Assembly (NCBI RefSeq): GCF_004116625.1
Contig: NZ_NXIE01000001.1
Span: 248,001-312,000 of the forward strand
Length of the DNA stretch: 64,000 bases
From: Halarcobacter mediterraneus
Lineage (GTDB): Bacteria; Campylobacterota; Campylobacteria; Campylobacterales; Arcobacteraceae
Reading direction: 5' to 3'
Shown here: piece by piece, positions 40,408 to 60,305 of the stretch
How the letters are laid out: every line of letters starts with the position of its first letter
Position numbering within the stretch: the first letter of the stretch is position 1
Made by a program: the position numbers and the translations under genes
The notes under the pieces: model-generated
Told to the model about the DNA's origin: nothing
The model's input: the letters and a program-made list of their open reading frames with translations, nothing else
Database searches by the model: none

Positions 40408-40427
40408 AATAAAAAGTTTTACTCTTC
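40399..40427. terminator. Stem-loop between convergent ftsZ and hspR
   Basis: An 11-bp perfect stem (GAAGAGTAAAA and complement) with a 7-base loop spans the two stop codons. On the minus strand it is followed by TTTT, so it looks like a terminator for cbpA-hspR; on the plus side the T-run is absent. Confidence 0.6.
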
Positions 40428-40802
40428 AAAAATTACTATATCATAAGAACTTTTTTTAATTACTAAAGCTTTAGAATTAGGTACAATTCCAAATTTATTA
40501 ATATCTTTCATTTTTGTTTTATATGTAATAATATCTGCTTCAAGCTTTTCTATCTTTTCATTTAATTGTAAAATCAAATCAACTCCAGCAAGATTTATAC
40601 CCATTTCTCTGGTAAGGGTTAAAACATATTTAATATGGTCAATATCTTTTTGAGAATAAAGTCTAATTTTACCATTTGTTCGAGAAGGCTTTATTAAGCC
40701 TTCTCTTTCATATTGTCTTAATGTTTGAGGATGTATATTTAATATTTCAGCAACTGCAGATATCAAATACACTGGTTCATTATATGCATTATTAGAATTC
40801 AT
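40419..40802 (-). CDS. hspR: MerR-family heat-shock repressor HspR
   Basis: HspR represses heat-shock operons by binding HAIR sites, with DnaK or its co-chaperone as co-repressor. The MerR-type helix-turn-helix is clear (LISAVAEILNIHPQTLRQYE), followed by GLIKPSRTNGKIRLYSQKDI and a short coiled coil (about 80-105). It is second in the operon behind cbpA, 11 bases downstream. Two HAIR-like sites lie in front of the operon, which implies autorepression. Confidence 0.94.
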   Translation of the reverse strand: MNSNNAYNEPVYLISAVAEILNIHPQTLRQYEREGLIKPSRTNGKIRLYSQKDIDHIKYVLTLTREMGINLAGVDLILQLNEKIEKLEADIITYKTKMKDINKFGIVPNSKALVIKKSSYDIVIFEE

Positions 40803-40813
40803 ATTTATCTCCT

Positions 40814-41698
40814 TTAGATTGTATCAGGAAGTTTCTCTTGTAAATATTCTTGTACTTCTTCTTCCAAATCTTCAAGTTTTGGTAATATAATATTTGCTTT
40901 TAAATGTAAATCACCTTTTATTGAGGTTTTTCTATCTAAAACTCCTAATTCTTTTACTCTAAACTTCTGATTTTGTTTAGTATTTTGTGGAACTTTTAAA
41001 GTAATTGTTTTATGAATTGTTTTTATCTCAACTTTACCTCCAAATAAAGCTGTTTTTAGAGGTATATCAAATGTTTTAATTAAAGTTGAACCTTCTCTTT
41101 CATATTCAGGACTTGAAGCTATATTTATTTTTATTATTAAATCTCCTCTTTGCCCTTGATATGATTTCCCTTTTCCTTTTGCTCTGATTTTTTGACCATT
41201 ATTTATACCTTCAGGTATTTTTATATCAAAAGAATCATTATTTAAAGAAATGTGTTGTTTTCCTCCTAATACAGCAACATCAAAAGGAATTGTTATTTGT
41301 GCTTGAGTATCTAAATCTGGTTCATTAAAACCTTGTGAAAAACCTCCAAAGTTGTTAAATCCATTTTGCGAAAACCCTGATGAACTAAAACCACCTTGCC
41401 CTCCAAACATTTGTCTTAATATTTCATCTAAGTCAACTCCTTGACCTTGACCTCTTGCAAAATCATGGAAATTTTGCCCTCCAAACATTGAATCCCCAAA
41501 TTGATCATATTGTTGTTTTTTTTCTGGATCACTTAAAACTTCATATGCAGCATTAATTTCTTTGAATTTATCTTCTGCATCTTTATCTTTATTTACATCA
41601 GGGTGATATTTTCTTGCTAATTTTCTATATGCTTTTTTTATTTCATCTGTTGAAGCATTTTCCTTTACTTCAAGTGTTTCATATAAACTTTTTGCCAT
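40814..41698 (-). CDS. cbpA: DnaJ-family co-chaperone, CbpA type
   Basis: The 294-residue protein has an N-terminal J domain (residues 3-66; [16 protein letters not shown] with the HPD triad), a Gly/Phe-rich linker (about 70-125: [18 protein letters not shown]) and two substrate-binding C-terminal domains. The Cys-rich zinc finger of true DnaJ is missing, which defines the CbpA type. It stimulates DnaK. It is first in the cbpA-hspR operon; its ribosome site AAGGAC lies immediately after a terminator-like hairpin in an unusually long leader. Confidence 0.94.
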
Positions 41699-41699
41699 T

Positions 41700-41871
41700 T
41701 TTTTGTCCTTAAAAAAGTTCCTTCTTTAAAGGAACCAAATAATTTATGACTACTTTTAACGATGGAAATAAAGTCCATCACAAGGTACCTTAAAAAAATT
41801 AATTTTTAAGGACACCTTAAGTAGCAAACCCTAAAGAGAACAACGAGTTGTTCTTACTTTAAGACTTGATA
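41700..41871 (-). promoter_or_regulatory. Structured leader RNA of cbpA-hspR with terminator/anti-Shine-Dalgarno switch
   Basis: From the predicted start (about 41871) to the cbpA ATG the transcript is about 170 nt and richly paired. In RNA order: a 7-bp hairpin (41837-41854), an outer stem (41819-41824 with 41750-41755) closing a three-way junction with a long hairpin (41783-41819) and a 6-bp hairpin (41761-41779), then a terminator-like hairpin with U6 (41717-41735, U-run 41711-41716), then AAGGAC. RNA segment GUCCUUAAAAA (41813-41803) is perfectly complementary to UUUUUAAGGAC at the ribosome site (41715-41705), so two alternative folds exist. I match no known riboswitch class. Confidence 0.6.
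41717..41735 (-). terminator. Terminator-like hairpin directly before the cbpA ribosome site
   Basis: A 7-bp stem (GTTCCTT/AAGGAAC) with a 5-base loop, followed on the minus strand by six T residues and then AAGGAC. The position, 19 bases before the ATG, suggests attenuation rather than the end of another gene. Confidence 0.6.
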
Positions 41872-41877
41872 TTTTCA

Positions 41878-41905
41878 TTTATATTTTATCATAAACTTGA
41901 GTCAA
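41878..41905 (-). promoter_or_regulatory. Sigma-70-type promoter of cbpA-hspR
   Basis: On the minus strand TTGACT (41905-41900) and TATAAA (41883-41878) are separated by 16 bases. The -35 box overlaps HAIR site 1, so bound HspR would block RNA polymerase. Predicted start of transcription about 41871. Confidence 0.65.
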
Positions 41906-41916
41906 AGTCAATCAAG
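41896..41916. promoter_or_regulatory. HAIR operator 1 (HspR-binding site)
   Basis: CTTGAGT-N7-AATCAAG matches the known HAIR consensus CTTGAGT-N7-ACTCAAG at 13 of 14 positions. Confidence 0.85.
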
Positions 41917-59926: not shown

Positions 59927-59952
59927 AGAAAAATTGGTTAGTATTCTTTCTT

Positions 59953-60270
59953 AGGTATAACAGACAATAGCTTGAGTTTTCAAGAGGAAAGTCTGGGCTG
60001 CAGTGAAGTATAGTTCCATTTAACAAATGGCTAGGGAAACCTAAGGGACAGTGCAACAGAGAGTAGACCGCCATTTATGGTAAGGGTGAAAGGGTAAGGT
60101 AAGAGCTTACCAGCATTTTAAGTAATTTTAATGGCTATGTAAACCCAACTAGCAGCAAGAAGAATATGGTAATAAACTTCACACTAATTGTTCTTCGCAA
60201 GATTGTTTAAGTAATTTAACAACTAGATAAATTATTGTTTAATACATAACCCAGCTTATAGTTATGCCTA
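59953..60270 (+). ncRNA. rnpB: RNase P RNA
   Basis: The RNA subunit of RNase P, which removes 5' leaders of pre-tRNA. The conserved core is evident: GAGGAAAGTCTGGGCT (59985-60000 region), GACAGTGCAACAGAGAGTAG with ACCGCC (60048-60075), AAACCCAACTAGCAGCAAG region, and CATAACCCAGCTTATA near the 3' end. Terminal helix P1 pairs AGGTATAAC (59953-59961) with GTTATGCCT (60261-60269), one G-U pair. In helix P4 the usual CCGGG/CCCGG pairing is CTGGG/CCCAG, a compensated change. A terminator follows at once. Confidence 0.95.
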
Positions 60271-60272
60271 AA

Positions 60273-60305
60273 TTTAGACACTAATTAAAGTGTCTAAATA
60301 TTTTT
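60273..60305 (+). terminator. Terminator of rnpB
   Basis: A 10-bp stem (TTTAGACACT and complement) with a 6-base loop followed by TATTTTT, directly after the RNA's 3' end. Confidence 0.88.

Follow-up and report, generated by a model that had tools for sequence, protein, structure and literature searches.

A dispersed family of predicted leader RNAs in Campylobacterales includes the leader of the cbpA-hspR operon

Comparison of sequences indicates that the leader of the cbpA-hspR operon in the window (the whole 64,000-nucleotide stretch of Halarcobacter mediterraneus DNA analysed here) is one copy of an unnamed family of folded leaders of about 110 bases, which stand before many unrelated genes. 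Most Arcobacteraceae carry this covarying RNA family, with up to about 26 copies in one genome; it is not in Rfam, and no paper describing it was found. On balance we think it probable that its members are generic attenuators in cis, that is, dispersed sense-oriented 5'-leader RNAs of Campylobacterales that would lower or tune the expression of the gene downstream.

The cbpA leader in the window

The genes cbpA and hspR form one operon on the minus strand (Table 1). The inverted repeat that overlaps the cbpA promoter is of HspR type, with a HAIR-like consensus. The predicted promoter fits a transcript start near 41876, and not one downstream of 41800, in agreement with the long leader assumed in an earlier sequence-only reading of this DNA. 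The leader would then be about 178 nt long, from 41876 to 41699 on the minus strand. Its folding energy is calculated as -51.4 kcal/mol, compared with -30.6 kcal/mol (sd 4.0) for shuffled sequences (z -5.2; 0 of 200 shuffles as low), and the hairpins, the U6 terminator-like site and the Shine-Dalgarno (SD) sequence described in that reading are all present.

Table 1. Features of the cbpA-hspR region, and one further RNA, in the window.
Feature	Position	Strand	Evidence or remark
cbpA-type DnaJ co-chaperone, 294 aa	40814..41698	-	ATG at 41698
hspR, 127 aa, next operon gene after cbpA	40419..40802	-	NCBIfam HeatShock_HspR 117 bits, cutoff 105
HspR-type inverted repeat CTTGATTGACTTTGACTCAAG, overlapping cbpA promoter	41896..41916	-	sequence
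Predicted sigma-70-like promoter TTGACT-17-TAAAAT	41883..41911	-	consensus scan
Element core (P1, linker, P2, P3) with nested insert	41745..41857	-	match to covariance model R1 (window left out of its seeds), E=3.5e-10, 59 bits
P1 hairpin AGAACAA-CUCG-UUGUUCU	41837..41854	-	7/7 pairs covary; 100 distinct sequences, 98% of cells paired
Conserved linker CUUUAGGGUUU	41826..41836	-	CUUUAG and UUU near-invariant family-wide
P2 5' strand GCUACUU	41819..41825	-	6/8 P2 pairs covary
P2 3' strand AAGUAGU	41749..41755	-	6/8 P2 pairs covary
Nested 37-nt palindrome AAGGTGTCC..GGTACCTT, the long hairpin of the sequence-only reading	41782..41818	-	holds GUCCUUAAAAA (41813-41803)
P3 hairpin GAUGGA-CUUUAUU-UCCAUC	41761..41779	-	7/7 pairs covary
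Terminator-like hairpin (T) GGUUCC..GGAAC and U6	41711..41736	-	hairpin 41736-41716, U6 41716-41711; 0.1 expected
Shine-Dalgarno AAGGA	41706..41710	-	would pair in hairpin S, which is the alternative to T in the family
Bacterial RNase P class A RNA	59952-60274		Rfam RF00010, 240 bits

A three-way junction had also been described. It does form in the predicted structure of this leader, but only because the nested palindrome adjoins P3; element copies that do not carry the palindrome have a two-way P2-P3 stem. The palindrome belongs to a small family of palindromes (AAGGT..ACCTT) whose members also occur within further element copies, the terminator loop being one of their sites. A second family of nested hairpins (TTCATAGCG.AGTCTTGTG.CGAACG.AGTGAAG) is inserted in the P3 loop or the terminator loop at three loci (L013, L292 and L366), and in three variant cores (L446, L448 and L459) the linker is extended by CUCAAAGAGAG..GUACAAGUAC, in which CUCUUU can pair with AAAGAG.

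Among the 16 species of the genus that were compared, the element is present at cbpA in six (G000, G003, G008, G009, G010 and G013), and a decayed remnant of it is seen in the cbpA leader of G002. The remaining 9 have no element there, and their cbpA leader is just a few dozen nucleotides with a plain SD. Because it is absent in 9 of 16 species while the HspR-type promoter upstream of cbpA is kept in all 16, with or without the RNA element, the comparison indicates that the element is optional at cbpA. In the cbpA leaders of G003, G009 and G013, and at a HIT-protein locus (L043), an SD-like motif remains on the left side of the element. Such motifs are not enriched to the left of P1 overall (5 of 112 copies, against 3 and 7 in controls).

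Structure, distribution and position of the family

When the genome to which the window belongs was searched at the DNA level, the same leader turned up in other places. A short pattern then located the element in 9 of the genus's 16 genomes, where it precedes cbpA, nifD, ureC, gatC, aroQ and other genes. The covariance model R1 was built from 12 sequences with the window left out, and it recognises in the window the P1 hairpin, the CUUUAG-UUU linker and the P2/P3 core. The core as a whole consists of the P1 hairpin, this linker, and the P2 stem closing P3. In an alignment of 100 distinct copies that was fitted to the model, which favours structure, 20 of the 22 pairs change on both sides; there are 595 cells with changes on both sides, where shuffles give 159 and slid partners no more than 156, and 96% of cells are paired (69% in shuffles, 39-55% with slid partners). 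For P1 and P3 the result is the same when the 12 seeds are aligned by MAFFT with no fitting to the model. P2 has compensatory variants in other genera and families (CUACUUU/AAAGUAG, CUUCUUU/AAAGAAG and CUCCUUU/AAAGGAG). While the sequence drifts, compensatory changes maintain the helices, and the conclusion from these alignments is that the core structure is under selection.

R1 has matches in 78 of 104 Arcobacteraceae genomes, with up to 24-26 copies per genome (26 at a looser threshold). Copies are rarer in other Campylobacterales, their prophages and viral contigs, and neither the covariance nor the pattern searches gave a convincing score outside the phylum, where there were two weak matches to Firmicutes contigs that had been preselected by the pattern. 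No match was found to named plasmids or phages as carriers. Within one genus, close species differ in copy number from 5 to 23. Identity is 0.77 between copies that stand at orthologous genes of different genomes, 0.67 between those at different genes within a genome, and 0.66 between unrelated ones; most Arcobacteraceae copies are thus old and inherited, with no recent burst. In Campylobacter-type genomes many copies lie away from gene starts, oriented either way and embedded in larger repeats, and the terminator module is missing; the near-identical copies in these larger repeats suggest recent spread.

The element is closely tied to start codons. An ORF start led by an SD lies 38-56 nt after the core in 117 of 147 Arcobacteraceae copies, compared with 1 for an antisense control and 5 for a control shifted by 300 nt. 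In 12 more copies the distance is 57-110 nt, so that 129 of the 147 have a start codon within 110 nt. In 124 of 146 cases the gene upstream has the same orientation, and in 74 its stop codon lies within 20 nt or inside P1. The downstream genes, whose names were read off their N-termini with no comparison to a family library, are mostly housekeeping genes that are unrelated and share no common pathway; they include glnK, nifD, ureC, rpsB, gatC, guaA and dnaK. At two loci (L055 and L126) the core abuts the start of a prophage gene. Here the 3' strand of P2 reads AAAGGAG, a perfect SD 6-10 nt before the ATG, and its pairing with CUCCUUU would make an SD-hiding stem within the core.

The terminator/Shine-Dalgarno module and the proposed 11-base switch

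At their 3' end Arcobacteraceae copies carry a module of the form GGUCCC-X-GGGAC-X'-AAGGA, which can form one of two mutually exclusive hairpins: T, in which GUCCC pairs with GGGAC ahead of a run of U, or S, a longer hairpin in which X pairs with X' and the SD pairs with CCUU. The two halves of the T stem vary together in 95 of 104 copies (77 are TCCC/GGGA and 18 TTCC/GGAA, with 8 mixed), and the X-X' pairing of S scores 8.19, compared with 6.60 (sd 0.12) when shuffled. The T/S pattern occurs 89 times in 16 genomes, and a reversed-pattern control not at all. Tandem copies of the element have a period of 111-112 nt that includes T, and therefore the terminator module belongs to the repeated unit. 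A locus in G004 (L315) has three tandem copies with an exact spacing of 112 nt, there are tandem pairs at 111-112 nt in G081 (L043) and G061 (L278), and three unevenly spaced copies are found in G410 (L051).

When the family consensus is modelled, the form that hides the SD is the more stable (-13.8 kcal/mol). The window copy has the T hairpin, U6, AAGGA and ATG all at the family distance, and as a sequence feature it has a terminator-like hairpin in the leader upstream of the ORF, as expected of an attenuator with an intrinsic terminator. Its S hairpin is weakened by a mismatch, and because of this the terminator form wins in the model (-8.9 kcal/mol). Some copies have no terminator (those before rpsB and panC, and L045). 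At mnmA in the window's own genome (L005) only the terminator/SD hairpin is left, relatives having the full element there (L017 and L372). Several other solo T/S modules were found, and the module may outlive the core. A comparison across copies gave no covarying duplex or contact between the core and the T/S module, and an antiterminator between core and terminator was rejected for this lack of covariation.

The sequence-only reading had placed a switch elsewhere in the leader, between GUCCUUAAAAA (41813-41803) and UUUUUAAGGAC at the SD (41715-41705), and had likened the two competing pairings of this segment to those of a riboswitch or RNA thermometer, here at cbpA. The 11-base complementarity is exact, and a complement to the SD segment of this length arises in only 0.25% of 2000 dinucleotide shuffles, which is above chance. 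However, it exists because of the nested, AT-rich palindrome insert that contains GUCCUUAAAAA, and it is not conserved in sister cbpA leaders. Four of the five element-bearing sisters (G003, G008, G010 and G013) have no palindrome, and the fifth (G009) has at the same place a diverged copy with no complementarity. The leaders of G008 and G010 show only 5-6 nt of complementarity, and the 11 nt found in G003 and G013 stem from a local hairpin in the terminator loop. The mean pair probability calculated for the 11-bp pairing is 0.06% at 25 C, 2.6% at 37 C and 9% at 45 C. It is thus a minor state in the model, and would hide the SD slightly more when hot, which is the wrong direction for a heat-shock gene, even though the SD itself is modelled as somewhat more open at higher temperature. 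A thermometer would have at this gene a conserved SD-hiding structure that melts with heat; the pairing is instead unconserved and rises with temperature, and the element itself stands before dozens of genes with no relation to heat shock and is missing from cbpA in more than half of the genus, where the HspR-type promoter is still in place. For lack of conservation, its minor population and its temperature direction the 11-base switch was rejected, and a cbpA-specific thermosensor or riboswitch acting through it is very improbable. What survives of the idea is more general. Two exclusive structures, one of which hides the SD, do occur in the family, as the local T and S hairpins, which both covary, but not at the sites first proposed; the leader is a conserved structured RNA; and control at the RNA level is likely, but it would be generic and local rather than specific to cbpA.

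Possible function and relation to known elements

The attenuator mechanism that we favour is inferred from the anatomy of the element. T would end part of the transcripts as they are made, and in read-through RNA S would limit the access of ribosomes until warmth, a protein or the ribosomes themselves open it. Folding probably begins with the core, which may bind a trans factor or slow the polymerase. At cbpA the element would have come in downstream of the HspR promoter and then taken up the nested palindrome, while S decayed, and the copy would therefore now be mainly an attenuator of the terminator type. The element as such probably arose as a mobile or copyable one that was kept for its effect on expression. 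The bias in position and the compensatory changes argue for a function; that presence varies and that the genes are unrelated argues against a specific signal. Against attenuation it has to be said that core and T/S module have no covarying contact, that the downstream genes share no pathway, that many Campylobacter-type copies lie outside gene starts, that some copies have no terminator, and that there is no target duplication. A further and more tentative proposal, possible though not one we would lean on, is that these RNAs are a general-purpose cis-regulatory class: a mobile or copyable cassette set before start codons, often right behind an upstream stop, which puts unrelated genes under one shared control by means of the bistable terminator/SD-hiding switch and answers to some cell-wide state, for example the supply of ribosomes, an RNA-binding protein or temperature.

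The chief rival is that the element is mostly a selfish dispersed repeat, MITE-like in the manner of ERIC, BOX or SPRITE, that is tolerated at the least harmful sites and keeps genes running by supplying an SD of its own, its RNA structure being a reflection of copying rather than of regulation. We regard this as rather unlikely, even though the element is, like a MITE, dispersed, non-coding, under 200 bp and structured, and though its variable copy number and presence at cbpA, its tandem copies and nested palindromes, the copies in both orientations in Campylobacter-type genomes and those at rRNA genes all fit. Against it stand the fixed distance to an SD-led start codon (1 case in the antisense control), the inheritance of orthologous copies, and a structure held by compensation. 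Nor is there a target site duplication, the left and right flanks being no more alike than shuffled pairs (4.95 against 4.85, sd 0.09), and terminal inverted repeats were not seen by eye at the element ends. A metabolite riboswitch or protein-bound leader that answers one broad signal (be it a nucleotide alarmone, the availability of ribosomes or an RNA-binding protein) and serves a scattered regulon through T/S seems less plausible still. It would account for an aptamer-like core with a near-invariant linker and P3 loop, for the adjoining terminator and SD, for the tandem copies, and for the use before glnK, nifD, ureC, rpsB, guaA and others. However, the genes have no common pathway, sister species have gained and lost copies at one and the same gene, the core exists without the platform, and no switching helix was found between core and platform, that is, no covarying core-T/S duplex of the kind by which a riboswitch links its sensing domain to its expression platform.

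Transcribed dispersed repeats are a known kind; one that is locked to start codons and has a bistable terminator/SD end is a new form of it. ERIC, BIMEs and Correia (NEMIS) elements, transcribed in mRNAs, resemble it in being dispersed non-coding units of about 100-130 nt with strong RNA hairpins inside operons, and ERIC and BIMEs alter the expression of neighbouring genes (PMC2229807, PMC10969869, PMC3049150). Unlike these, our element showed no terminal inverted repeats or target duplication, is locked to start codons in the sense orientation, carries its own SD with a terminator/SD-hiding module, and has pairs held by compensation in old copies. The pneumococcal BOX, RUP and SPRITE repeats are likewise modular, AT-rich, terminator-like, nested and spread over many unrelated genes, but they favour convergent gaps (PMC3049150), whereas our element lies upstream of starts, 38-56 nt away. 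This fixed place would set it apart from them even if it is mostly selfish; if it is a plug-in attenuator, it would show that repeats of a dispersed kind can turn into a 5'-UTR regulator shared by many genes. Riboswitch and attenuator leaders also have a conserved folded domain followed by a terminator or SD-hiding hairpin upstream of an ORF, but in our family there is no shared ligand pathway and no covarying link between domain and platform, and the domain is also found on its own. ROSE and fourU thermometers, like the cbpA leader, have an SD in an AU-rich hairpin before a heat-shock gene. They differ in that the exclusive pairing claimed for cbpA fails, S is decayed in this copy, and most family members precede genes that have nothing to do with heat shock.

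No Rfam family (riboswitches, thermometers or leaders) reaches its gathering score on the element; a match to RF02514 at one locus (L021) is ureB coding sequence and not the element. In the main text of Stav et al. 2019 (PMC6429828), 38 intergenic regions of Arcobacter sp. L are screened and most of the Arcobacter-confined motifs are left unnamed. The present family could be among these, and no such motif appears in that main text, to which the comparison was confined.

Finally, an origin of the element from an rRNA leader or boxA was rejected, as Arcobacter rRNA leaders have no element and only G242 (Sulfurospirillum cavolei, NZ_AP014724.1) has one just before 16S. In that genome the core, with no terminator, lies directly before the start of mature 16S rRNA in rrn operons (L066 and L070, and also L392, L401 and L410). 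The rRNA leaders of other species that were checked have no core before 16S, and a possibly related fold is seen in the rRNA leader of G106. In two different families (L054 in G242 and L056 in G143), a core lies close to where 23S ends at its 3' side, in antisense orientation to the rRNA.
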